Part shown: piece by piece, positions 4,475 to 61,801 of the stretch
How positions within the stretch are numbered: position 1 is the stretch's first letter
How the letters are laid out: the number at the start of each line of letters is the position of its first letter
NCBI GenBank assembly: GCA_021732415.1
Contig: JAKFVC010000102.1
Coordinates: 1 to 64,000, forward strand
Direction: 5' to 3'
Source: Planctomycetaceae bacterium
GTDB taxonomy: Bacteria > Planctomycetota > Planctomycetia > Planctomycetales > Planctomycetaceae
Length of the DNA: 64,000 bases
The notes under the pieces: model-generated
Databases searched by the model: none
What the model saw: the letters and a program-made list of their open reading frames with translations, nothing else
What the model was told of the DNA's origin: nothing
Made by a program: the position numbers and the translations under genes

Positions 4475-4483
4475 TCTGTCTGA

Positions 4484-4880
4484 AGCCTGACTCTCCAGAG
4501 TCGGGTGAGCCCGTAATATTCTGCGTCAAAAGCGTTCGTCCCCAACGAGCTTCGCGCAGCGCACGGCACGATTTTCCTGGTCGGGTTCGCACGCTTCAAT
4601 ACGGCTTCTTATCTCACAAAACCCAGGACTCCGGGTGCCACTGGCTGTGCCAGTGCTTTGCCGGATCGGGGTTCGAAAGACTACGGGCACTGGCACAGCC
4701 AGTGGCACCCAAATTCAGTCTTATTGAAGCGCGCGAACATTGATAGCGAAATCGGGTCGTGCGCTGCGCGAAGCTCGCGAAGCTCGCGAGGGTCTTATCG
4801 TCTATTACGTCGCGGGTTACGGGCTCGGACGGGCCTGGAGACCCGTCCTACAAAGCACCCGACTCAGAGAGTCGGGCTAC
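4484..4880. repeat. Multi-layer nested palindrome, copy 1 (convergent gap)
   Basis: Five module pairs are arranged symmetrically: CCTGACTCTCCAGAGTCGGG 4485-4504 with 4858-4878; GAGCCCGTAA 4507-4516 with 4817-4826; CGAGCTTCGCGCAGCGCACG 4546-4565 with 4758-4777; CGCTTCAATA 4592-4601 with 4721-4730; and the central stem 4632-4657 with 4685-4710 (GGGTGCCACTGGCTGTGCCA and complement). A GGACGGGCCTGGAGACCCGTCC unit at 4827-4848 appears on the right side only. It fills the gap between two converging genes. Copies 2 and 3 are at 9385 and 50121. Confidence 0.9.
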
Positions 4881-4890
4881 GGGAAATCGA

Positions 4891-6771: not shown

Positions 6772-6874
6772 CGTGGGACGGGTCTCCAGGCCCGTCCGTC
6801 CGGCCAATCTACCAGCAAAACAATTTTCCGATCGCTTTCCAAACTGACGGACGGGCCTGGAGACCCGTCCCACG
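6772..6874. repeat. Inverted repeat, GTGGGACGGGTCTCCAGGCC family
   Basis: Arms at 6773-6800 and 6846-6873 with about 45 bases between. Same family as the outer modules at 9385, 33150, 37345, 47698 and 50121. It lies between two genes read in the same direction on the minus strand and creates a false N-terminal extension of the downstream reading frame. Confidence 0.9.
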
Positions 6875-9384: not shown

Positions 9385-9730
9385 TGTCGTGGGACGGGTC
9401 TCTGACCCGTCTGAGCCCGTAACCGGCGACGTAATACAAATTAGTCCCTCGCGAGCTTCGCGCAGCGCACGACTCGTATCAATCAATACGGCCTCTTATC
9501 TCATAAGAACCCAGGATTCCGGGTGCCACTGGCTGTGCCAGTGCTTTGTCGGATCGGGTGTCGAATGACTATCGGCACTGGCACAGCCAGTGGCACCCGA
9601 TTTTTGGCCTTATTGAAGCGCGCGGACCTCGCTAGAGAAATCGTGCGCTGCGCGATGCTCGAGAGGGATGAATGTTTTGGGGAGCAGAATGTTACGGGCT
9701 CAGACGGGTCGGAGACCCGTCCCACGATAC
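9385..9730. repeat. Multi-layer nested palindrome, copy 2 (convergent gap)
   Basis: Module pairs in order from outside: GTGGGACGGGTCT...GACCCGTC 9388-9411 with 9702-9726; GAGCCCGTAAC 9413-9423 with 9691-9700; GCGAGCTTCGCGCAGCGCAC 9451-9470 with TCGTGCGCTGCGCGA 9641-9655; CAATACGGCC about 9484 with TATTGAAGCG 9611-9620; central stem 9529-9555 with 9575-9598. It fills the gap from stop codon to stop codon almost exactly. Confidence 0.9.
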
Positions 9731-33140: not shown

Positions 33141-33149
33141 TCGGCGTAT

Positions 33150-33393
33150 CGTGGGACGGGTCTCCAGGCCCGTCCGTCCAGCAGAACTGCCGGAAATACG
33201 ATCTTCCACCCCAGATCTTCGTGTCCTTCGTGATCTTCTGTGACAAATCTTTTTAAACAGAAGGTCACAAAGGACGCGAAGGATTGGATTGTCAAAGTCG
33301 CGGTTGCCTCGCGGTATCGGCCATTACGCTATCGCGATTCTTAACCGTACGACCGGGGGGGACGGACGGGCCTGGAGACCCGTCCCACGATAC
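33150..33393. repeat. Nested inverted repeats filling a convergent gap
   Basis: Outer GTGGGACGGGTCTCCAGGCC at 33151-33170 with its complement at 33369-33388; inner ATCTTCGTGTCCTTCGTGAT at 33214-33233 with its complement family at 33263-33284. The gap between the two stop codons is 255 bases and the element takes almost all of it. Confidence 0.9.
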
Positions 33394-36250: not shown

Positions 36251-36421
36251 AGGCGAGCCGGGCGGCGTAAGCCCCCGGGTTCTTTCGGCCTATTTTTGAA
36301 ACACAGAGGCACAGAGAACACAGAGATCTCTATCTCGCCTTCTCTGTGCCTCTGTGTTTCCACTTCCAACGAGTGCTCCTTCAATTGAAGAATCCGGGGG
36401 CTTACGCCGCGCGGCTCGCCT
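36251..36421. repeat. Nested inverted repeats with CACAGAG-word core
   Basis: Outer AGGCGAGCCGGGCGGCGTAA at 36251-36270 with its complement family at 36402-36421; inner CACAGAG words at spacing 8-9 (36302-36325) with complement at 36341-36360. Lies in a 540-base divergent gap that has no other recognisable content. Confidence 0.88.
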
Positions 36422-36524: not shown

Positions 36525-37340
36525 ATGCCTGCCATCTCCGACATCACTCACTTCCTCAGCGAGTTCGCTCCTCTGTCGCTGGCAGAAGCGTGGGACAATG
36601 TGGGACTATTGATCGGAGACGCCGGACGTCCCGTGGATCGCGTCCTGACGTGTTTGACGGTCACACCGGATGTCGTGGCCGAGGCGATCGCTTTGCGGGT
36701 CGACTTGATCGTGTCGCATCACCCGATGCTCTTCAAACCGATTCAACGACTCGTTTCCAGCGACCCGCAGGGGGCCATGTTGCTGTGCCTGATTGGTGCC
36801 GGCATTGCGCTCTACAGCCCGCACACGGCATTCGACAGTGCGAGCGCGGGGATCAATCAACAATTGGCTGAGAGATTCGGACTGCTCGGCATACACCCTT
36901 TGCGAATCAAGCCGAACCCGGGCAATTCGGGGGCTCCTCTGTCGGAAGGGGCCAGCGGTTCGGGGAGATATGGGGATCTGCCTCAGCCCTGTACCCTCGA
37001 TGAGCTGTGTGAATCGACCAAGCAGCAGTTGAATATTTCGGGACTGCAACGAGTCGGCTCGTCCTCCGCGGCGATTCGGCGGTTGGGTATTGCCTGCGGC
37101 GCCGCGGCGGAATTCATCCCCGATGCGCTGGCGGCTGGCTGCGACGCCTTACTCACGGGAGAAGCCCGGTTTCACGATTGCCTGCGGGCCCGAGACAGTG
37201 GCCTCGCACTCATTCTGCCAGGGCACTATGCGACCGAGCGACCCGCGGTAGAGGCATTGGCCGACACCTTGCAGTCACACTTCCCGAACGTGACCGTCAG
37301 CGCGAGTGTGCAGGAACACGATCCGGTGGAGATTGTGTAG
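36525..37340 (+). CDS. Nif3-like dinuclear metal center protein
   Basis: A 271-residue Nif3/YbgI (GTP cyclohydrolase type 2-like) protein. Metal-ligand motifs are LIVSHHPMLFKP in the N-terminal half, YSPHTAFDSA next, and the C-terminal HYATERPAVEAL, which gives the last His/Glu. The N-terminal WDNVGLLIGD is a family hallmark. It forms a toroidal hexamer; function is poorly known. Length is typical. It ends against a nested repeat. Confidence 0.9.
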   Translation: MPAISDITHFLSEFAPLSLAEAWDNVGLLIGDAGRPVDRVLTCLTVTPDVVAEAIALRVDLIVSHHPMLFKPIQRLVSSDPQGAMLLCLIGAGIALYSPHTAFDSASAGINQQLAERFGLLGIHPLRIKPNPGNSGAPLSEGASGSGRYGDLPQPCTLDELCESTKQQLNISGLQRVGSSSAAIRRLGIACGAAAEFIPDALAAGCDALLTGEARFHDCLRARDSGLALILPGHYATERPAVEALADTLQSHFPNVTVSASVQEHDPVEIV

Positions 37341-37344
37341 CGAG

Positions 37345-37518
37345 CGTATCGTGGGACGGGTCTCCAGGCCCGTCCGTCCCGTAGCGTGATCTTTGTGATG
37401 TTCTGTTAAAAAGAATTGGAACAGAAGATCACAAAGGACACGAAGGTCTCTTTGCAAAACGGGTGGTGAAAGCGCTCTCGGCGGGACGGACGGGCCTGGA
37501 GACCCGTCCCACGGTACG
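37345..37518. repeat. Nested inverted repeats filling a convergent gap
   Basis: Outer GTGGGACGGGTCTCCAGGCC at 37351-37370 with complement at 37493-37512; inner GATCTTTGTGATGTTCTGTT at 37387-37406 with AACAGAAGATCACAAAGGAC at 37420-37439. Takes the whole 178-base gap between two stop codons; same two-family combination as 33150-33393. Confidence 0.9.
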
Positions 37519-39174
37519 CTACGGCGTCGTCGCCACCACTTCATGCTGGCGCAGGTAATGATCATCCACCGGATAGTTCGAGAACTGCAGCGTGTAGTAT
37601 TTCTCAAACCATTCCTGGATATGCGGCGTGTGTGATTCATCCCATTCGGGAGCCACGTGCAGCAACTTGCCCTCGGGGGTGGCCCGGATCTCCCCTTGTT
37701 CCACGACGATTTGGCCGTTTTGAATGACCACGCGCGGGAGCTCGAACATCAACTGTATATCGGGATTCGGCGTGTAAATCGTCACGTCCGCGTCCGCACC
37801 GACGCCCAGGTGCCCCTTGTGTTTCAACCCCAGGATTCGTGCTGGGCTGGCTCGAGTGATGATGGCGATTTCGTTCAGCGAGTATTCGCGATCAATATCG
37901 GGCAACGTACAACGTTCTTTCACACGCGGATGCATGCGCGAGAGAACCTCGCGCCGACGCTCCTTGGACATCAACAGGGCGATGATTTCCGGGTAGGCCA
38001 TGAACGAACCACCGTTGGGATGATCGGTACTCATGCCGACACGCCACGGATCGTCCATCAGCAGATACCACTCCAAGCCAATCGCCCATTGCAGACCATG
38101 GACCATGCTTTTGTCTTTGTAGACGATGGGGACGATGCCGCAACCCGATTCCATTTCGCTATCGCCCGAAAACCACTTGCGGCCGGTGACCTTGTGCAGG
38201 AAGTAACCGAGCGGTCCGTCACCCGTCATCGAGGTCGTTTCCGAAAACATGACCTGCCCGACATCGACGGTGATATTGGGATGGCTGTTCACGTATTCGA
38301 CCAGCTTGGGGACCTCTGAGCAGAACGTGCTCTGCACATCAGGATCACCGCCATAGCTGTGGAATTGAATGTGAGTCAGGTGTCCGCGACGTCCTTCCAG
38401 CGCCTTCATCGTCTCCAGCGTCGTGGACCAGTTACCGGGCATCCCCAGATTGTTGCAATGGATATGCACAGGGTGGGGCAGGCCGAGTTCTATCGCCGCC
38501 TGAGCAATGCTGGAAATGATCTGCCGCGGGGTCACTTCGAAATGGCTGACCATGTCGTCCAGGCCATGCACATTTCCGCCACCCGACTTCCAGACTTCCA
38601 CGCCACCGGGGTTCACGATCTTGGCCGCGTAGCCCTTGGTCGAATTGAGCAGCCAGCCGACATACGCCTTCAGCCGTTCGGGCTCGCCTTTCTGGATTTG
38701 CTCCATGATGTAGTGATTGTTGCCCATCAGCACAAAGAAGCCTTTGTCGATGATGGGAGTATCACGTAACTCTTCATGAGCATGCCGGGCAGCCAGCGCC
38801 GGAATGGCCGCATCGAACGCGGTCGTGTAGCCCAAGCCGGCATATTTGTAGCCGGTGGCAAACGTGCTGGGCACGCTGCCCATGGTGCCCGAGCGAGTCG
38901 ACTGGGTACGGACAACCTTCTCGGCCAGCCGCTTATCATCCGGCATCATTTTGCGGGCCACGTTCACCTTCGGACCAGCGATATGGCAATGCATATCGAC
39001 GCCCCCGGGCATCACGCACAGCCCCTCGGCATTAAAGATCCGCGACGGTTTGACCGCCGGATCGGTGGGCGCGGCGATGACCTTCCCAGCCTCAATCCAA
39101 ATATCGCGCACTTCACCGTCAATGCCATTGGCGGGGTCATAAACGGTACCACCGGCAATCTTGAACAAACTCAC
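37519..39174 (-). CDS. fhcA: Formylmethanofuran dehydrogenase subunit A (FhcA/FwdA)
   Basis: A 551-residue amidohydrolase-fold subunit of the formyltransferase/hydrolase complex that moves C1 units between tetrahydromethanopterin and formate. The zinc motif is VDMHCHIAG; the later His, Asn and Lys positions lie in GYAAKIVNPGG and HIHCNNLG; GADADVTIYTP at the C-terminus is the amidohydrolase tail. Planctomycetes are known to carry this archaeal-type C1 pathway. The partner genes fhcB, fhcC and fhcD are not in the window. GTG at 39174 is chosen (AGG upstream), with GTG at 39186 as an alternative. Cytoplasmic. Confidence 0.88.
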   Translation of the reverse strand: MSLFKIAGGTVYDPANGIDGEVRDIWIEAGKVIAAPTDPAVKPSRIFNAEGLCVMPGGVDMHCHIAGPKVNVARKMMPDDKRLAEKVVRTQSTRSGTMGSVPSTFATGYKYAGLGYTTAFDAAIPALAARHAHEELRDTPIIDKGFFVLMGNNHYIMEQIQKGEPERLKAYVGWLLNSTKGYAAKIVNPGGVEVWKSGGGNVHGLDDMVSHFEVTPRQIISSIAQAAIELGLPHPVHIHCNNLGMPGNWSTTLETMKALEGRRGHLTHIQFHSYGGDPDVQSTFCSEVPKLVEYVNSHPNITVDVGQVMFSETTSMTGDGPLGYFLHKVTGRKWFSGDSEMESGCGIVPIVYKDKSMVHGLQWAIGLEWYLLMDDPWRVGMSTDHPNGGSFMAYPEIIALLMSKERRREVLSRMHPRVKERCTLPDIDREYSLNEIAIITRASPARILGLKHKGHLGVGADADVTIYTPNPDIQLMFELPRVVIQNGQIVVEQGEIRATPEGKLLHVAPEWDESHTPHIQEWFEKYYTLQFSNYPVDDHYLRQHEVVATTP

Positions 39175-39399
39175 GTGTACCTGCACTCATTCAAATCGAG
39201 GATCGATCAGCCTTCCGCGAACTTGGCAGCTCGAAAGGGTGTCACATTGATGCTGCTGCAATCTAGCAAGTCCGATGCATTAACACTATCGAACAACGCC
39301 TTTCCGAGGCCCATCCATGCACCGTAACACATTGACACAACATAACTTGTAGTAGATCGCACTCCCCGAGACGACCAACATCACTGCCGCAGTGGATGA

Positions 39400-44775: not shown

Positions 44776-44776
44776 C

Positions 44777-45124
44777 AATTTGGACTGCGGTGATTCATCA
44801 CCACTTTCCCATTAGGTCCGATATTGAAAACATGCGACTGAGTTCTGGAAATGGGCTGAGAACAGCAAGCAATCCACTCAGCTATTCAAGAGTTTGTGAA
44901 CCACGAATCACACAAATGACACGAATCGAATTCCTAAAAATCAGATGCGATTGAACAGAGTTCTCTCTTTCAAATTCGTGTCATTCGTTTTATTCGTGGT
45001 TAAAAATCCCCTTGCCCGCTCAATCAACGATTAGCGAGAGCTCTCGGTTTGGATAGGCGCTCTTAATAGTTTTTGGCAGTGTAGATGGAATAAAAAGCGG
45101 CGATGAATCGCCGCAGTCCAAATT
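44777..45124. repeat. Nested inverted repeats with CACGAAT-word core (convergent gap)
   Basis: Outer AATTTGGACTGCGGTGATTC at 44777-44796 with complement ending at 45124; inner CACGAAT-like words (CACGAAT, CACAAAT, CACGAAT, spacing 9) at 44901-44925 with complement at 44975-45000. Fills the gap between two converging genes. Confidence 0.88.
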
Positions 45125-45128
45125 CGGG

Positions 45129-46746: not shown

Positions 46747-47574
46747 TCAAATCCCACTGCCTTCTTCGTGTCGATGGGGAAACTGTTGATCCATTTCGAG
46801 AGACGGCATTTTTTCTGACAGTCGACCAACGATCCGAGACGGCACGCCTGCCACGGTGCAATGCGGTGGCACCGCATCGAGCACGACACTCCCCGCACCG
46901 ATCTTGGAGCCTTCGCCGATTTCGATATTTCCCAGCACCTTGGAGCCCGCACCAATCAGCACACCGCGCCGGACCTTGGGATGTCGGTCTCCCGAGTCCT
47001 TGCCGGTTCCGCCCAGCGTCACTTCATGGAGAATCGAGACGTCGTCCTCAATGACGGACGTTTCGCCGATCACGATGCTCGTCCCATGATCCATCATGAC
47101 CCCCGAACCAATCTTCGCCGCGGGGTGGATGTCGACCCCGAACACTTCAGAAATCCGGTTCTGAAAATGAAACGCCAGCAACTGCCGGTCGTGCGCCCAC
47201 AGCCAATGCGCCACTCGATACGACTGGAGTGCCTGAAATCCCTTGAAAAACAGGAACGGAATCAGGAAGCCGCGCGAGGCCGGGTCGCGATCGCGAATCG
47301 CCCGCAGGTCGTTGCGAATCGATTCCCCGACCGTCGGGCACGATCCGTAAGCCTGATCGAACAGCGACCGCAACAATGCCGGATTGACGCATTCGGTCGC
47401 CAGCTTCGAGCACAATAACTGGGCGAGCGCGTCTTCGAGACGGCGGTTCTTGAGAATCGTCTGTGTTAAAAACTGCCGCAGAAAGGGATCTCGTTCTTCT
47501 TCGGACCAGGCTTCTGCGCGAATGGCCGTCCAGATGGGATCGGCTTGTTGAGATTGAACGCTATTAGCTGGCAT
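46747..47574 (-). CDS. cysE: Serine O-acetyltransferase
   Basis: A 275-residue enzyme that makes O-acetylserine from serine and acetyl-CoA, the first step of cysteine synthesis. The N-terminal half is helical (about 1-140); the C-terminal half is a left-handed hexapeptide helix. Catalytic Asp and His are in DIHPAAKIG and MMDHGTSIVIGET; the acetyl-CoA loop is HEVTLGGTGKDSGDRHPKV. The C-terminus lacks the usual terminal Ile of classical CysE regulation but ends GSGI. Single gene. Confidence 0.93.
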   Translation of the reverse strand: MPANSVQSQQADPIWTAIRAEAWSEEERDPFLRQFLTQTILKNRRLEDALAQLLCSKLATECVNPALLRSLFDQAYGSCPTVGESIRNDLRAIRDRDPASRGFLIPFLFFKGFQALQSYRVAHWLWAHDRQLLAFHFQNRISEVFGVDIHPAAKIGSGVMMDHGTSIVIGETSVIEDDVSILHEVTLGGTGKDSGDRHPKVRRGVLIGAGSKVLGNIEIGEGSKIGAGSVVLDAVPPHCTVAGVPSRIVGRLSEKMPSLEMDQQFPHRHEEGSGI

Positions 47575-47697
47575 CAGAAATCATTGTCTCCACTTTGCAA
47601 TTGCGCGGACCTGCGTTGAAATTCAACACTGCTGCCGATCACCAGCCTATCGCTGTCTGCGCCGGGTGTCGACTGTGCGACGTGTCGTAACGCGTAT

Positions 47698-47906
47698 CGT
47701 GGGACGGGTCTCCAGGCCCGTCCGTCCAGCAACTCGTAGCTTGTCTCTCCAGAGTCGAGCGAATTCAGTGCGACTCGAGCAGCGATAAAGAGTTCCTGCG
47801 GCCGTCGATACGAATGTTCGATTCGTTGATCTACGGAGTTCGCCCGACTCTGGAGAGTCAGGCTACGATGGGGACTGACGGGCCTGGAGACCCGTCCCAC
47901 GATACG
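47698..47906. repeat. Nested inverted repeats (GGGACGGGTC outer, CCGACTC inner)
   Basis: Outer CGTGGGACGGGTCTCCAGGC at 47698-47717 with complement at 47883-47902; inner TAGCTTGTCTCTCCAGAGTC at 47737-47756 with CCCGACTCTGGAGAGTCAGG at 47843-47862. In the 423-base divergent gap between cysE and dppD. Confidence 0.88.
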
Positions 47907-47997
47907 CTGGTGTGGACACGCTGTCTCTTTTCCGTTACAGCATAATTGAATTGATCCACCAAACCGCTCTCTGAGAACTTCCACCCCGGGAGGCGAA

Positions 47998-49029
47998 ATG
48001 GCTGAGCCGCCGCCGTTGCTAGCTGTCGACAATCTGCGAACTTACTTTAACACCGAGTTCGGTGTCGCGCGGGCCGTGGATGGAGTCAGCTTTTCGATTT
48101 CTGCCGGCAAGACTCTGGCCGTCGTCGGCGAGAGCGGCTGCGGAAAAACCGTGACGGCGCTCAGTATCCTGCAGTTGGTGCCGATGCCTCCCGGTCGGTT
48201 CGAAAGCGGCGAGATCCGCTTTCAGGGAAAAAATATCCTCGGCTTGTCCGCCAGTGAGCTCCGCAAACTGCGCGGTGGCGACATCGCCATGATCTTTCAA
48301 GAGCCGGCCACCAGCCTGAATCCGGTCTTCACGATCGGCTTCCAAGTCGGCGAGGCCATCCTGCTGCATCGTCCGGAAGTCCCGCGGAACAAGGTCCGGG
48401 ATGAGGTCTTGAAAGCGCTGCGGTCGGTGCATGTCAGTGACCCCGAGCGGCGCCTCGATCAGTATCCGCATGAAATGTCGGGGGGCATGAAGCAGCGGAT
48501 CATGATCGCCATGGCTCTGGCGTGCAAACCGCAACTGTTGATCGCCGACGAGCCGACGACCGCCGTGGACGTGACCATTCAGGCCCGGATTCTCGATCTC
48601 CTGCGCGACATCCAGGCCGAACATCACATGGCCATTCTGTTGATCACGCATGATCTGGGAGTCGTGGCGGAACTCGCCGATGATGTCGTGGTGATGTATG
48701 CCGGCAAGGTGATCGAACAGGCGCCGGTCCACGAGCTGTTCGACAATCCGCGGCATCCTTATACGCTCGGATTGTTTGCCAGCCTGCCGCGAGTGGATGA
48801 GACCAAGACTCGGCTGGAAACGATCGAAGGGAGCGTCCCGCCGGCGACCCACTTCCCCGAGGGTTGTCGCTTTCGTGAACGTTGCAAATGGGCTGGCCCA
48901 GACTGCACCAAGGAGCCGCCCTTGTTGCAGATTGGCGGCGGGCATGCCGTCGCCTGCTGGTATCACGACACCATCGCCAGTCAACGAGCTGTCAGCTCAG
49001 GAGCCGCCAGTCCAGGAGCCAACCGATGA
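47998..49029 (+). CDS. dppD: Oligopeptide/dipeptide ABC transporter ATPase, DppD-like
   Basis: A 343-residue ATPase subunit that drives peptide import. Walker [10 protein letters not shown]-loop QEPATSLNP, signature [10 protein letters not shown], Walker [14 protein letters not shown] and switch His ITHDLG are present. The C-terminal oligo_HPN Cys-rich domain has [23 protein letters not shown] five bases before the ATG. Overlaps dppF by ATGA. No permease or binding-protein gene is near. Confidence 0.93.
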
Positions 49030-50120: not shown

Positions 50121-50472
50121 TCTCGTGGGATGGGTCTCCAGGCCCGTCTGAGTGCCGTAACATTTGACTTGGCAGAGATTCGACCCTGTGGAGCTTCGCG
50201 CAGCGCACGGCCGGAGTTGGTCAAATGAGTCCCAAACGCTTCAATAAGCCAGAATTCGGGTGCCACTGGCTATGCCAGTGCTCGCAGTCTTTCGACACCC
50301 GGTCCGGCCAAGCACTGGCACAGCCAGTGGCACCCAGAAGAAGAGTTTATTGAAGCGAAACACACTGTTCGCACATATCTTGCCGTGCGCTGCGCGAAGA
50401 TCGCGGGGGTTGATCATGTGTCATGTCGCTGGTTACGGCACTCGGACGGGCCTGGAGACCCATCCCACGATC
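50121..50472. repeat. Multi-layer nested palindrome, copy 3 (convergent gap)
   Basis: Pairs from outside: GTGGGATGGGTCTCCAGGCC at 50125-50144 with complement at 50448-50467; GAGTGCCGTAAC 50150-50161 with GTTACGGCACTC 50432-50443; GGAGCTTCGCGCAGCGCACG 50190-50209 with 50383-50398; CGCTTCAATAA 50238-50248 with TTTATTGAAGCG 50346-50357; central stem TTCGGGTGCCACTGGC from 50256 with 50311-50335. Same order as copies 1 and 2. Confidence 0.9.
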
Positions 50473-54093: not shown

Positions 54094-54229
54094 ATTTTCT
54101 TGAACTCCGTCTAGTACATCCAGCATTCCCGTTTCAATTTGACAGAACTGCCGGGCAGTCCGGCAATCGATACAGCGGGACGTAGACTGAACCTCCACTT
54201 TCGCCTTGCACGTAATAGGGACAGCCGCA

Positions 54230-57200
54230 ATGAAACTGACACCGTGGCTCCGCTCATTGAAGAATGGTCTCTCACGGGCTTTCCGGACGACGAAAGTGAA
54301 ACGCCGTCTGATCAGCTCCGGTAATCAGCTGATGGGCGACGGTGCTGGCGTCGAATTGCTGGAAGATCGCACCGTATTGAATGCGACGTTGTATTCGACG
54401 TTTGCCGCCGATGGAACCTATGACAACGGTCATCTGTTGCAGCCGCAACCGTTCAATCCGATTGATTTGCCCAGAGACCCGTTTGGCAATCCGGCCATTC
54501 CGATTATTGTCCAGTTCCAGGGCCTGGTCAGCATCAATATTGTGCCTGGCCGTCCGACATTGTCCTTCAATACGTTTTCGACCGATCCGAATGCACCCAA
54601 CTATCCCGGCATCACCAGCATTGCGACGTATCAGGGACCGTCTGTCGTCAACGCTGGTTCTTTGACGTTCTGGTACGAAATTCAGGACGGTCAGAACACA
54701 CCCGGACCGTTGCAGCCCAACCCCGTGTTGAAGATCATCTCGGCGGCCAACAATGGTGCGGCCATGACGGACGGTGGTGGCGTGGTGACGATGTCGGTCA
54801 TTCCGACAAACGGACTCAGTGCCAACGGAAAGATTGTCGATGCCGGCAGTCTCCTCGACAAGAATATTTTCATTGACACCAAACCGATCATTCTGGATGT
54901 TGATTCCACGACGCCGGATTCCTTCCCCTACAATAACGATCCCTCACAGGGAATTGTCCGCCGCCCCTATCGAGTCGGTGATGAGCCCATCCATTTGACG
55001 GTGACGTTCAGTGAACCAGTCGCGGTCACCGGTGCTCCGGAATTGGTGCTGAATACGGACGGTATCGCCGGCGCTCAGGGAACCGACGGCCGGGCTGTGT
55101 ACAAGAGCGGCTCGGGCACGAACGTTCTGAAGCTCGATTACATCATTAACCCCGGAGATAACAGCTTTGACCTGGACGTGGCGAGTGGTTCTGCATTCGT
55201 CACCAATCCTTCGAATGGTGTTCAGGTACGCGACCAGGATTTCACTCAGGACGATGCACTGACTGGCGTAGCGGGCCCCAACGGGATTTTCCCCGGAGTC
55301 CTGGGGGTAAATCGTGCGATCCAGGTTGATACCCTGGCGCCTCTCGTCGGTCCGCGACCGGACACTCCGAACGCACCCTTCGTCGGTGTGACTTCGTTTA
55401 ACGCCAACGGGACATATGGAGCCGGCCAGACTCTGACGATTCGTATGAGCTTCAATGAAGCCGTGGTGTTGACCGGAGCTCCCACCCTGGTCCTCGCGAC
55501 CGGACCCGTGAATCGCGAAGCCACATTCGCGGGATTTGACGGGACTGACACGCTGCTGTTCACATACACCGTGCAGCCGGGCGATTTGAGCAGCGATCTG
55601 GATTATGTCGGCCCGAACTCCTTGAAACTCAACGGTGGGTCGCTCACCGACATCGCCGGAAATGCTGCCAGCATCGTATTGCCGCTGCCGGGTGCCGTGG
55701 GTTCGTTGAGCTTCAACAAGAATATCGTGATCGACACTGTCGTCGCGGTGACCAACGTGACGACGACCGTTCCCAGCGGCAGCTACGGAATTGGCCAGGT
55801 CATCCCGATCCAGGTTGTCTTCAACAAATCCGTCACGGTTTTCGGAACACCGCAGCTGGTGTTGGATCTGGATTCGCCCACCGACTCGGTCATCGTCAAT
55901 TACTCGGCTGGCTCCGGAACCAACATTCTGACGTTCAATTACACGATTCAGGCCGGGCACAATACCCCTGATCTCGATTACATTTCCAATGCCGCCCTGC
56001 AATTGAACGGCGGGGCCATCATCGACACCATTGGCAACGGCAATGCCATTCTGACACTGCCCATTCCGGGTTCGGTGGGCTCGTTGGGATTCAATAAGAA
56101 CATCTTGATCGATACCAACATTCCGCAAATTGCGGGGGTATCCGCCAGTGCTTCCGTCCCCAATGGGACCTATGTCGCCGGGCAGACCATTCCGATTACG
56201 GTGACCTTCAATGAGGCAGTGTCTGTCTCCGGAATTCCGCAGATCACCCTGGATACCAACGGTATCCCTGGTGTGCAGCCCTTCTTGAATCCGGGCGAGA
56301 TTGCCGACGCCGTAGTGAACTACAGCAGTGGCTCGGGGACGACAACCCTGACCTTCAATTACACGATCGCGTTGGGACAGAACTCGCTCGATTTGGATGG
56401 CCTGTACCTGCAGCTCGCCAATAACTCATTGATCAAGGATCTGGCTGGCAATGATATCGCTCCCACCGGCTCCATTTTGACGTTGCCGCAGTTCACCAAC
56501 GAATCGCTGACGAATGCGAATGTGGTGGCCAATGTCGTGCCTGTTTCGCAGATCGATGATGTGGTCGTCGGAAACGTGATTGTCGGTGCCAATTACTCCT
56601 TTACGGTGGGCGGCAATACCTACTCTTATGTCGCCACTGGGGTAGACACGCAGGCCACGATCGCGACCAAGTTGCGTCAGGCTGTCAACCAGAGCCCGGT
56701 CGTCGTCACGGCGGGTGGCTTCGGCAATATTGTTCGTTTGACCTCGAACACTCCCGGCACTGCGTTCACAGTGAATATTGTCGGTGGTTCTCCTCTCTCT
56801 GATTCAACGGTCGTCAACAGCGTCGCGGCCGTCAAGCAGGTCGATTCGATTACCGTCACCAGCGTGTCTCAAGGGACCGTCTATGATTTCGTGGTGAACG
56901 GCGTCGCCTTGACCTACACCGCCAACAATTCCGACATCGCGAATACCGTGGCGGTGGCGATTCGCAATCTGATTAACAGCCACGTCACGCTGGCCACGCA
57001 AGTGGGTGCCACTGCCAATGGTAGCGTAGTGACGATCACCAGCAGTACGGCCGGTGTGCCAGTGACAGTCTCGACAGGTCATTCGCTGGCGGGCAGCCGC
57101 AATCTGGTGATTGATACCGCACCACTCATTACCAACGTGACCAGTTCCACCGCCGATGGCATTTACACCAACGGCAATGCGATCCTGATCCAGGTAACCT

Positions 57201-60200
57201 TCTCTGAACCGGTGACGGTCACCGGGACTCCGCAACTGGTGCTGGAGACCAACGGCACTGTCGGTATCCAAGCGGGTGATGCCCGTGCCGACTACAGTGG
57301 CGGCAGTGGAACGAAAACACTGACCTTCCTGTATGTCGTGGCTGCGGGACAGACCAGCGTTGATCTCGACTATGCCACGGGTGCGGCTCTGTTGTTGACG
57401 GGCGCGACGATTCGCGATCTCGACGGACAACAAGCGAATCTCAGCGCGACCCTTCCGGTCCCCGGTGGCCCGGGATCGTTGAGTTTCAACAAGGAACTGC
57501 AGGTTGACGATACGGGTGCCAATGATCCTCCCGTCAACTTTGTCCCGGGAACGCAGACGATCATCGAGGACATTCCCAACGGACTGGCCTTCTCCGCGGC
57601 CAACGGCAATCAGATCCAGATCAAGGACGTTGATGCGGGCGGCAACGATGTGCAAGTCACCTTGACTGCCGCACATGGCGTGGTCACTCTGCCAGTCACA
57701 GCTGGCCTGACGAGCGTCACCGGGAATGGCACCGCCACCCTGGTCATTCAAGGCAGCGTGGCAGTCATCAACACGCGGCTGAATGGTTTGATCTTCACTC
57801 CTGACGCCAATGTGAATTCCATCACGACCAACGGAATCGGACTGACCGTCGCGACCGATGATCTTGGGAATACGGGTGGTGCGCCCAAGGCCGATTCCGA
57901 CCTGATTCCGATCTTCGTCACGGCCGTCAATGACGTGCCAGTGGCCGCCGATCAAACATTGCAGACGGCAGTCGGCACGCCCATCACGGTCACCTTGTCG
58001 GCTTCCGATGCCGACTTCGACAGCCTGGCGTATGTCATCGACCAGACGGCCTTGCCCGCACATGGAACGCTGGGCGTGCTGGCGGGTGGGAACACGATCG
58101 TATATACCCCGAATGCCGGCTATGTCGGTCCTGATACATTCCGCTTCAACGCCAAGGATGCCCTCTCCACCTCCAATGCCGGAACCGTCACGATCAACGT
58201 CGTGCCGACCGTGTCGGTGACTGGATTCCCGGATATCACCATCGACGAAGGTAATGGACCGGGCTTCTCCAATGCGGTCTTCACCATCACGCTCAGTCAG
58301 ATACCCGTGCAGCCGGTCACGATCCTGTACACAACCGTGGCAGCTACGGCTACAGCAGGTGTGGACTTTCAATCGACATCCGGGCAAGTCACATTTCCCG
58401 CCGGTCAACAGACGGCAACGATCCTGGTCCCGATTAGCGGTGATCTGACCGACGAGCCGAATGAAACCTTCAGCGTGGTGCTGTCAAACCCGACGAACAC
58501 CGTGCTCGTTGACACCACCGCCATCGCCACGATCCAGAACGACGACGGTCTGTCGATCGACGATTTCACCGCCACGGAAGGGGATTTCGGAACGAAGATC
58601 TTCACGTTCAACGTTCATCTGTCATCTCCGTCGGCGAACACGGTTTCGGTGAGCTACAAGACCGTTGATGGCACTGCCAGCCAGAATGGCGATTACAACA
58701 ATCAGGCTGGAACCTTGACGTTCCTGCCGGGCGAACAGTTGAAAACGGTCAGCATCACCGTCAACGGTGATACGCTGAGCGAAACCGATGAAGCATTCTT
58801 CGTCGATCTGTTCGGTCCGTCCGGATCGAGCCTGGGTAAGTTCCGTGGAATTGGAACGATTCTCAACGACGATACAGCACCCACTTATTCCATCGGGGAT
58901 CTGTCGATCACTGAAGGCAATTCGGGGGTGAAGATTGCCAATTTCGTCGTCACGTTGTCGGCGATTGCCGGTCAACCGGTGACGATTGATTACACGACCG
59001 TTGACTCCACCGCGTTCGCCGGCAGCGACTACTTCGCGACCAATGGTACGGTGACGTTCGCCCCGGGGACGACGACTCAGCAAATCTCCGTGCAACTGAT
59101 CGGTGATCAGATTGTCGAACCGGATGAAACCTTCCTGGTGACATTGTCGAACGGGGTCAACGCCTCGCCGATCAAGAGCCAGGGGGTCGGAACGATCCTG
59201 AATGACGACGGTATCTTTATCTCCGATACTCAGTTGCAGGAAGGCAACGCAGGAACAACGTTCATGACCTTCACGGTCACGGCTCCGCAGACCAACGGAC
59301 AGACCGTGTCGGTGGATTACACCACCGCACCGGGAACGGCCACACCAGGCGTCGACTACACGCCGGTCAGCGGGACTATTCTCTTCTCCGGCGGAGTGAC
59401 CTCCAAGACGATCACTGTGCCGATCCTGGGTGATTTCTCGCAGGAAGGCAATGAAAACTTCTACGTCAACTTGTCGAATCCTTTGAATTCACCACTGCTC
59501 GACAGCCAGGCGATCGGCACGATTCAGGACGACGACATCACCCCCGTGATTACCTCCAGCGATTACTTCGCCCAGGAAGGCAATTCCGGAACGACGAATG
59601 CAACCTTCACCCTGACGTTGTCGGCCGCGGTCGGCATCCCGGTCACGGTGAACTACTCCACCTTCGATGTCACTGCAATCGGCGGCTCCGACTATGTGCC
59701 AGTGACAGGTACAGTGACCTTTGCTCCGTTCCAGACATCGCAAACGGTCATTGTCCCGATCATCGGTGATACCGTGGACGAATTCGACGAAACATTTGGA
59801 CTGCATCTGTCGAATCCGACCAACGCGAATTACTTCGGCCCGGATCCGATCGGGACGATCGGTGACAATGATTCGACTCCGACCTTGATCTTCAATAACT
59901 TGACGATCCCTGAAGGCCAGGCCGGTCAGACCCAGGCCGTGATCACGGTTTCGCTGTCGGCACCTAGCGGTAAAGTCGTGACGATGAATTACTCAACGTC
60001 AGATGGCACCGCGATCAATGGCAATGATCCGAACAACAACAGCAGCAATGATTACATCTCTCAGACAGGTACGCTGACGTTCCAGCCTGGTGTGACCAGT
60101 CAGAACATCACAGTCACGATTAACGGCGACACCCTGTACGAACTGGATGAAACGTTCGCGGTCAATCTGTCCGGCTTTGGCAATGTGAACGCGGTCAACA

Positions 60201-61801
60201 CGCAGCGAACAGTGACGATCGTCAATGACGATCCGAAACCGACGGTGGTCATCAGCGATGCCACAGTGCCCGAAGGTGACTCGGGGCTCACACCCGTTGA
60301 TTTCACTCTGACGTTGCAACAACCGAGCGCCCTGCCGGTGACGGTGACCTATTCGACATCATCCGGCCAGGCACAAATCGGCAGCGACATCCAGAATGCC
60401 GGTGGCACGGTCACATTCGCCCCGGGTGAAACCTCCAAGACGATCACGGTGAATGTCATCGGTGACACGGCTGTGGAAGGCGATGAGAACTTCTTCGTCA
60501 ACCTCTTGAACGGTGTCAACGTGGTCATCGGCGACAACGCCGGTTTGGGAGTCATCACCAACGACGACTTCCTGCCCAGCGTGCAGGTCAGCGATGCCGT
60601 GCTCCTGGAAGGGGATGCCGGAACATCTCAGATGATCTTCACGGTCACTCGTACGGGATCGACCGCACTCCCCACCACCGTGGCTTACTCGACCAGCAAC
60701 GGTACTGCTACTGCAGGTTTAGACTTCAATGCGGCTAGCGGAACGGTGACATTCGCCGCCGGTGAAACCACCAAGAATATCATCGTCAACATCAAGGGCG
60801 ACGACATCGCCGAGCCCAACGAATCGTTCTTCGTCAACTTGTCGAATCCGTCCAACGCGACGATTGCCGATGGGCAGGGTGTCGGAACCATCACGAACGA
60901 CGACAACGCCCCGCCAGCGGTCACCCTGCCGGCTGGACCGTTGGCGACAGTCGAAGAGACGAATCTCTCGATCACCGGGATTTCGGTGGCTGATCCTGAT
61001 GCGGCTGGTGCCTCGATCATTGTGACGTTGACTGCCGCACATGGAACGATTGTGGTTCGCAACGATGCGATCAATGGCCTCGATAGCTCGCAAATCTTGA
61101 ATAACGGAACGGCAGAAGTCACCCTGGTGGGATCGATCGCCGAAATCAATACGACTCTGGCCAGTTCAAACGGCGTCGTTTACCGTGGGTTCACCGACTT
61201 CTTCGGCTCCGACAACCTGATAGTGAAAGCCAACGACCTGGGCAACACCGGCAACAGCGGTGTTGAGAAGACCGACACGAAGATCGTCGTCATCAACGTG
61301 GCCAACGTGAACGATGCCCCGGTGATTGGATTCACGGCTGACGGCGGTGGAGCAGCCACTCCGATCAACAGCACCAAGGGTAATGCGGTCGCGGCCTTCG
61401 GTCCGCCCAACTCGCTGACCTTGTCCGATGCCGACAACCTGAACTTTGGCGGCGGCAAGATTACGGTGACAAACCTGGGACAGTTCATCAGTGGTAAGGA
61501 TACGATTTCGGTTCGTAACCAGGGCACGAGTAGCGGACTGATCGGATTCAAGAAGGGCAAGATTACATTTGGCGGTCAGGTCATCGGTACGGCTACCGGC
61601 GGCAAGGGAACCGATCCGCTGGTAATCACGCTCAGCAACACGGCCAGCATTGAAGCCGTCACGGCCTTGATGAAGAACATCACCTTCGGCACGTCCAAGG
61701 CACGCCTCACGGCCCTGCCGCGAACGCTCCGCATGGTGGTGACGGACGGCAACGGTGGAACCAGTGCCGGAGTCCAGACGACGGTCAATGTGACGAACTA
61801 G
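54230..61801 (+). CDS. Giant Calx-beta/Ig-like surface adhesin
   Basis: A 2523-residue protein. Residues 1-60 are basic and lack a hydrophobic core, but VELLEDRTVLNA matches the planctomycete LEPR-like (LE[PD]R) sorting motif. About 220-1090 holds five SwmB/SbsA-type Ig-like repeats (NGTYGAGQTLTIRMSF type); two smaller repeats at about 763-960 (ITV...YDFVVNG...) interrupt them. Two cadherin-like units follow (about 1100-1323), then eight Calx-beta domains (about 1326-2225) with DEGN/EGDSG calcium motifs, and two C-terminal cadherin-like units. No SLH, LPXTG or PEP-CTERM anchor seen. Probably cell surface or matrix. ATG at 54230 is chosen over 54206. Confidence 0.9.
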   Translation: MKLTPWLRSLKNGLSRAFRTTKVKRRLISSGNQLMGDGAGVELLEDRTVLNATLYSTFAADGTYDNGHLLQPQPFNPIDLPRDPFGNPAIPIIVQFQGLVSINIVPGRPTLSFNTFSTDPNAPNYPGITSIATYQGPSVVNAGSLTFWYEIQDGQNTPGPLQPNPVLKIISAANNGAAMTDGGGVVTMSVIPTNGLSANGKIVDAGSLLDKNIFIDTKPIILDVDSTTPDSFPYNNDPSQGIVRRPYRVGDEPIHLTVTFSEPVAVTGAPELVLNTDGIAGAQGTDGRAVYKSGSGTNVLKLDYIINPGDNSFDLDVASGSAFVTNPSNGVQVRDQDFTQDDALTGVAGPNGIFPGVLGVNRAIQVDTLAPLVGPRPDTPNAPFVGVTSFNANGTYGAGQTLTIRMSFNEAVVLTGAPTLVLATGPVNREATFAGFDGTDTLLFTYTVQPGDLSSDLDYVGPNSLKLNGGSLTDIAGNAASIVLPLPGAVGSLSFNKNIVIDTVVAVTNVTTTVPSGSYGIGQVIPIQVVFNKSVTVFGTPQLVLDLDSPTDSVIVNYSAGSGTNILTFNYTIQAGHNTPDLDYISNAALQLNGGAIIDTIGNGNAILTLPIPGSVGSLGFNKNILIDTNIPQIAGVSASASVPNGTYVAGQTIPITVTFNEAVSVSGIPQITLDTNGIPGVQPFLNPGEIADAVVNYSSGSGTTTLTFNYTIALGQNSLDLDGLYLQLANNSLIKDLAGNDIAPTGSILTLPQFTNESLTNANVVANVVPVSQIDDVVVGNVIVGANYSFTVGGNTYSYVATGVDTQATIATKLRQAVNQSPVVVTAGGFGNIVRLTSNTPGTAFTVNIVGGSPLSDSTVVNSVAAVKQVDSITVTSVSQGTVYDFVVNGVALTYTANNSDIANTVAVAIRNLINSHVTLATQVGATANGSVVTITSSTAGVPVTVSTGHSLAGSRNLVIDTAPLITNVTSSTADGIYTNGNAILIQVTFSEPVTVTGTPQLVLETNGTVGIQAGDARADYSGGSGTKTLTFLYVVAAGQTSVDLDYATGAALLLTGATIRDLDGQQANLSATLPVPGGPGSLSFNKELQVDDTGANDPPVNFVPGTQTIIEDIPNGLAFSAANGNQIQIKDVDAGGNDVQVTLTAAHGVVTLPVTAGLTSVTGNGTATLVIQGSVAVINTRLNGLIFTPDANVNSITTNGIGLTVATDDLGNTGGAPKADSDLIPIFVTAVNDVPVAADQTLQTAVGTPITVTLSASDADFDSLAYVIDQTALPAHGTLGVLAGGNTIVYTPNAGYVGPDTFRFNAKDALSTSNAGTVTINVVPTVSVTGFPDITIDEGNGPGFSNAVFTITLSQIPVQPVTILYTTVAATATAGVDFQSTSGQVTFPAGQQTATILVPISGDLTDEPNETFSVVLSNPTNTVLVDTTAIATIQNDDGLSIDDFTATEGDFGTKIFTFNVHLSSPSANTVSVSYKTVDGTASQNGDYNNQAGTLTFLPGEQLKTVSITVNGDTLSETDEAFFVDLFGPSGSSLGKFRGIGTILNDDTAPTYSIGDLSITEGNSGVKIANFVVTLSAIAGQPVTIDYTTVDSTAFAGSDYFATNGTVTFAPGTTTQQISVQLIGDQIVEPDETFLVTLSNGVNASPIKSQGVGTILNDDGIFISDTQLQEGNAGTTFMTFTVTAPQTNGQTVSVDYTTAPGTATPGVDYTPVSGTILFSGGVTSKTITVPILGDFSQEGNENFYVNLSNPLNSPLLDSQAIGTIQDDDITPVITSSDYFAQEGNSGTTNATFTLTLSAAVGIPVTVNYSTFDVTAIGGSDYVPVTGTVTFAPFQTSQTVIVPIIGDTVDEFDETFGLHLSNPTNANYFGPDPIGTIGDNDSTPTLIFNNLTIPEGQAGQTQAVITVSLSAPSGKVVTMNYSTSDGTAINGNDPNNNSSNDYISQTGTLTFQPGVTSQNITVTINGDTLYELDETFAVNLSGFGNVNAVNTQRTVTIVNDDPKPTVVISDATVPEGDSGLTPVDFTLTLQQPSALPVTVTYSTSSGQAQIGSDIQNAGGTVTFAPGETSKTITVNVIGDTAVEGDENFFVNLLNGVNVVIGDNAGLGVITNDDFLPSVQVSDAVLLEGDAGTSQMIFTVTRTGSTALPTTVAYSTSNGTATAGLDFNAASGTVTFAAGETTKNIIVNIKGDDIAEPNESFFVNLSNPSNATIADGQGVGTITNDDNAPPAVTLPAGPLATVEETNLSITGISVADPDAAGASIIVTLTAAHGTIVVRNDAINGLDSSQILNNGTAEVTLVGSIAEINTTLASSNGVVYRGFTDFFGSDNLIVKANDLGNTGNSGVEKTDTKIVVINVANVNDAPVIGFTADGGGAATPINSTKGNAVAAFGPPNSLTLSDADNLNFGGGKITVTNLGQFISGKDTISVRNQGTSSGLIGFKKGKITFGGQVIGTATGGKGTDPLVITLSNTASIEAVTALMKNITFGTSKARLTALPRTLRMVVTDGNGGTSAGVQTTVNVTN

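Follow-up and report, generated by a model that had tools for sequence, protein, structure and literature searches.

Palindromes nested within palindromes in a planctomycete genome: probable non-autonomous units of RAYT-like transposases

Intergenic palindromes that enclose other palindromes, found in a Planctomycetaceae bacterium, are probably non-autonomous units of RAYT/Y1-type HUH tyrosine transposases. Their nesting appears to come from compound ends, from elements of one family landing between the arms of another, and from the copying of whole packages; the arrangement is a dense, multi-family variant of known REP/RAYT (TIRYT) biology. The window, a stretch of 64,000 nucleotides, is contig C32 of a 9.87-Mb genome in 350 contigs. 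Catalogue statistics come from 1.25 Mb of this genome, window included (12.7%), a partly biased sample in that some stretches were chosen for containing the arms here called G; the f11 family was sampled more widely. Inverted repeats were found by a gapless search of intergenic DNA, in which genes were called with our own simple hexamer-scoring caller, not a published one.

One G unit, at 37350–37513, occupies the gap between the convergent genes 36525–37340 and 37519–39186. Its left arm (37350–37381, plus strand) is 10 nt away from the first gene's stop codon, and its right arm (37482–37513, minus strand) 6 nt away from that of the second. The arms form a perfect 32-nt inverted repeat, and the left one, a REP-like hairpin GGACGGG-TCTCCAGG-CCCGTCC, folds by itself (z −2.8). 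Between them is a hairpin of the CACAAAGGACACGAAGG family, f4 (37391–37436; CTTTGTGATGTTCTGTT...AACAGAAGATCACAAAG; z −6.8). An earlier note on this DNA had described the nesting as symmetric; some nests are indeed exactly coaxial, but the inner axis here is offset 18 bp from the outer one. A second G unit, with 34-nt arms at 33146–33179 (plus) and 33360–33393 (minus), also holds an f4 hairpin (33217–33281), and a third (47692–47907) surrounds a GTAGC.TG-CTCTCCAGAGTCG pair at 47734–47868 and has a homologous composite at L049:6447–6640. Two nests have other outer families: the TTTGGACTGCGG (f11) unit at 44777–45124, with an exactly coaxial CACGAAT pair (44899–45001), and the GGCGAGCCGGG (f27) unit at 36251–36421, around a CACAGAG pair (36298–36360). 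All of these nests had been named in the earlier note, and each was verified. The G unit at 6772–6874 has no inner palindrome.

The earlier note had also placed nests in three large copies. Two of them are G2-type units with two or three further concentric pairs: 9387–9727 (pairs 9404–9710, 9445–9668, and 9520–9599) and 50123–50470 (pairs 50194–50399 and 50258–50335). The third (4475–4890; unit 4484–4851, inner pairs 4546–4777 and 4633–4710) has lost its left G arm. Its right G2 arm (4816–4851) is intact and is the sole G arm left; the left-arm position is taken by a CTGACTCTCCAGAGTCGGG hairpin of another family.

Across the 1.25 Mb, 484 inverted repeats gave 35 families of at least three members. 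Nesting is more frequent than chance predicts: 119 of the 484 sit within another inverted repeat, where random placement in non-coding DNA would put about 32. At least 74 of these 119 are compound or ambiguous, and 45 independent nests remain. Decay of a single long palindrome was rejected as their origin, because the DNA that separates outer from inner arms is for the most part not complementary, with z mostly near 0. A trivial further source of coaxial layers is a pair of same-family palindromic units that flank something else, as at L053:8304–8687.

The G arm (GGGACGGGTCTCC) is a 34-nt REP-like hairpin with an 8-bp stem (−8.4 kcal/mol, z −2.8). Its exact core occurs 460 times genome-wide, mostly in inverted pairs, and the arms are intergenic. 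Arm conservation in 48 G pairs drops sharply past nucleotide 29 (the first 15 nt were fixed by the search pattern). No GTAG/CGTC tag stands beside the G hairpin, whose arm starts GTATCGTGGGAC; GTAG is borne here by other families (f0/S1, f13, f19, and f12). In this respect G resembles TIRYT ends more than it does GTAG REPs.

Thirteen genes match Y1_Tnp, and nine of these have arms of catalogued palindrome families nearby in inverted orientation. A RAYT-like gene on contig C40 (L221) is bounded by inverted G1 arms and sits between two convergent genes, the same setting as the small G units; a second, found on contig C9 (L233) by protein search, is bounded by G2-type arms. The two proteins are 66% identical, and both contain H-x-H plus the Y in IQYIGRN. 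Against the NCBIfam RAYT model (REP_Tyr_transpos) the C40 protein reaches E=2e-16 and 60 bits, under the cut-off of 80, and against Pfam Y1_Tnp 21.4, under the cut-off of 23. For the homologues on contigs C167 and C21, the bounding arms belong to f19 and f0, respectively. Because G1 and G2 arms bound the C40 and C9 genes, the G arm appears to be the end of a RAYT-like transposon, and small G units would be such ends without the gene. Comparison of G interiors with the transposase gene gave no match above background, which rules out that they are remnants of that gene. A PDB search with the transposase gave no match, and no G arms were found in viral contigs. For the CAC-word families (f4, f14, f8, f22, and f31), no transposase was found among arm pairs 450–3000 bp apart around genes in the 1.25 Mb. 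Two further Y1 genes on contig C1 (L015 and L016), 2.8 kb apart and with equal Y1_Tnp scores, both have AAAGGGGACAGGTCCATT inverted ends.

Some nesting resides in the transposon ends themselves. The arms of f21 and f26 are concentric around one Y1 gene (L010), as are those of f16 and f32 around another (L011); a third Y1 gene (L013) has f10 arms and a second pair matching the f23 type. The small units f21>f26, f16>f32, and f10>f23 are coaxial. Since identical concentric family pairs flank single Y1 genes, these small units are best read as deletion forms of one transposon, not as insertions between families. The pairs f1>f3 and f24>f25 are likely also compound elements, and most exactly concentric nests are of this kind. 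A single transposon can thus carry concentric palindromes as its compound ends, which is a pitfall for anyone who reads nesting as repeated insertion.

Double ends around single Y1 genes, together with the constancy of certain pairs (f24>f25, 4/4; f21>f26 or a similar pair, 5/5; f1>f3, 18/39), could suggest that every outer and inner pair is one fixed compound element, with no nesting by insertion. As a general account this is very improbable, and it is refuted for both G and f11: both occur with many inner families and with none, so neither is part of one compound element. The earlier note had proposed looking for outer families without their inner partner, and these are common: among 48 G pairs, 19 lack any inner palindrome (27 have exactly one), and 16 TTTGGACTGCGG units carry their native spacer alone. 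A different model, that of the note itself, has new palindromes enter the exact centre of an existing one, for example at an extruded cruciform loop. The position of the inner element was considered in the 45 independent nests and in seven more f11 units taken from across the genome; 51 of these were scorable. The 21 independent G outers have a mean |f−0.5| of 0.28, where 0.25 is expected, and include no exactly coaxial case. Their inner elements could not be told apart from a uniform scatter along the spacer, and in some G spacers there are two, one next to the other. Central insertion was accordingly discarded for G. The f11 family, singled out only after inspection of the data, is different: its 12 outers have a mean of 0.075, four are coaxial within 1 bp (0.17 expected), none of 5000 simulations was as extreme, and at least three different inner families are involved. 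The f30>f6 nest is coaxial as well. Yet no native f11 spacer is recognisable beside the arms of the four exactly coaxial units, many coaxial pairs elsewhere are compound ends, and the 39 nests without f11 average 0.25 (P=0.47), with one coaxial against 0.7 expected. Central entry is therefore improbable as the general route. Its narrower form, that unrelated palindromes are added to TTTGGACTGCGG precisely on the dyad axis, is unlikely too; the transposase explanation does not predict the central bias of f11. If it were true, a HUH-type transposase or a replication event would recognise the centre of a folded palindrome, adding concentric palindromes layer by layer.

Comparison with relatives bears on how the units arrived. 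Syntenic stretches were read in G001, G002, and G003, which are about 77, 82, and 88% identical, respectively, over long matches. The G002 gaps orthologous to nested units measure 6 bp (window 44776–45128), 3 bp (L053:13451), 13 bp (L053:16312), 21 bp (L051:13219, three layers in the window genome), and 22 bp (L061:8932). Because these gaps are only 3–22 bp, arms and spacer arrived together. They speak strongly against independent single-arm insertion, in which G arms would have landed singly beside each stop codon and the enclosed DNA would be old intergenic sequence with its own repeats. That account draws on the eight G pairs with both arms at most 20 nt from stop codons, in convergent gaps, and on the many G spacers that look unique; it is also opposed by the excess of pairs over singles (49 to 10 in the 1.25 Mb) and by the recurrence of composites with similar interiors, and we consider it highly unlikely. 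Exchange of G-unit interiors by homologous recombination or conversion through identical arms is unlikely. At L053:16312 the G arms of the window genome and of G003 share nearly the same right boundary around unrelated interiors; the G003 unit at 37345 combines a G2-like left boundary with a G1 right end; and in the copy at 4475–4890 one arm has been replaced by another family's hairpin. Independent insertion into the same permissive gap would, however, explain L053:16312, and at orthologous gaps other families, too, take one another's place although they have no arms in common.

Turnover against G003 is extensive. The same gap is often filled there by a different palindrome, as is the convergent gap of the 44777–45124 unit. 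Both arms are matched in only 7 of 40 outermost units with a G003 junction; the 20 nested units with such a junction comprise 15 that are missing altogether, 3 that are shared in full, and 2 in which only the outer arms are shared. The 37350–37513 unit is common to both genomes, with an altered spacer and the inner hairpin likewise present in G003; the automatic count scores 37343–37520 as single despite that shared hairpin. The two nested units with only outer arms shared do not provide clean empty sites: at 36251, a single arm survives in G003, adjoining another unit, and at L053:16324 the interior in G003 is entirely different. The empty-site comparison proposed in the earlier note thus yielded near-empty gaps; in the syntenic stretches of G001–G003 there was no orthologous pair whose homologous outer spacer merely lacks the inner element, and we infer the insertion of inner elements for that reason. 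Of the earlier interpretation, outer families with varied or no inner partners and near-empty sites stand, and central entry for G does not. The G003 interval orthologous to window 47574–47998 spans 818 bp, has no G unit, and holds an apparent small glyoxalase/VOC-type gene.

Nested units also recur as wholes. Composite interiors are 73–86% similar across loci in four G>f14 composites (three at L053, one at L059), several G>f4 composites (similar pairs L032/L060 and L055/L058), and two G>CTCTCCAGAGTCG composites (47699 and L049). Their outer flanks look unrelated by eye, except for about 20 nt upstream that are common to L055 and L058. Because similar composites recur at unrelated loci, they appear to move as packages. 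Three G>f14 composites lie within 5.3 kb at L053:11309–16575, with interiors 82–86% similar. The uniformity of arms around drifting interiors may reflect selection, conversion, or recent copying.

Placement is strongly tied to gene ends. In 29 of 46 G pairs one or both arms come within 20 nt of a stop codon, where random insertion into the present non-coding DNA would give 2.5. Di Nocera et al. 2013 (PMC3733652) describe the same for other bacteria, whose convergent REPs mostly lie less than 20 bp from the 3′ ends on both sides. Proximity to stop codons may reflect either insertion preference or purifying selection.

The transposase explanation proposes that each unit consists of two inverted REP-like ends and a tolerant spacer, served by a large set of RAYT/Y1-type HUH tyrosine transposases, and that units insert chiefly into short gaps just behind stop codons. 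On this reading the outer G element is a REPIN/TIR-type unit, whose arms variously enclose a transposase gene, plain DNA, or a palindrome from another family. Nesting would then have three sources: compound ends, with two concentric hairpins per transposon end (f21/f26, f16/f32, and f10/f23); presumed insertion of one family into another's spacer, at no preferred position for G; and multiplication of composites as packages. Movement would presumably follow the proposal made for REPINs, with arms cut by the cognate RAYT and the unit passing through a single-stranded intermediate.

Several known systems share parts of this design. REPIN/RAYT systems (Pseudomonas fluorescens SBW25, PMC3116915; Escherichia coli TnpA-REP, PMC8266576) have short hairpin arms in inverted pairs, extragenic and in high copy, and the gene for their cognate Y1 HUH transposase lies between copies of those arms (here L221 for G1, L233 for G2). 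The present genome differs in its several dozen families, in spacers that reach about 400 bp and harbour other families, and in two G arms that bound the gene directly. TIRtrons, or TIRYTs (Di Nocera et al. 2013, PMC3733652), have a RAYT-like gene bounded by terminal inverted repeats that form a repeat family; the same study describes REP dimers inside palindromes in A. variabilis, T. roseum, and H. neapolitanus, and notes many TIRYT-type genes in a planctomycete, R. baltica. In contrast to TIRYTs and REP dimers, nests here involve many family pairs and reach at least three layers, and whole nested composites turn over at orthologous junctions. Insertion sequences that enter REPs (ISPpu9, PMC8450116) likewise use repeats as landing sites for other elements. 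Bacterial MITEs are also inverted-repeat units without coding capacity; however, G arms belong to a Y1 transposase, not a DDE enzyme, and a MITE-like element with a 12-bp direct repeat was seen in only one G arm of G003. That element (TTGGGATTACCCTACTTT...AAAGTAGGGTAATCCCAA) lies in the right G arm of the G003 orthologue (L196) of L053:13455–13715. It is palindromic, and because the 12-bp direct repeat GGCCAAGAGACC flanks it on both sides it is MITE-like; its position is non-central. Beside G units themselves no obvious direct repeat was found by eye at junctions of the window genome, G003, or G002, with boundaries approximate.

The movement of REP-type elements is still inferred, not watched. 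In this genus dozens of families, several of them alongside a transposase gene of their own in the same genome, turn over at orthologous gaps between species 77–88% identical, which offers natural before-and-after sites for each family. Counting against the transposase explanation, G003 has about 36 exact G cores per strand, and no close G-RAYT homologue was found in its 87%-complete assembly; the sub-cut-off model scores of the C40 protein and the lack of a transposase match for the CAC-word families count against it as well. Outside the genus of the window, a Gemmataceae metagenome-assembled genome from Lake Baikal (L255) contains one G-like inverted pair with a short spacer, which could be a transfer or mis-binning. 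The f11 family is also found as 34-bp solo hairpins; 16 of its units genome-wide have a near-constant spacer length of 127–146 bp, with f11 arms 96% and spacers 54% identical on average (12 of 26 arm positions were fixed by the search). A single open frame of 2531 amino acids spans window positions 54206–61801.
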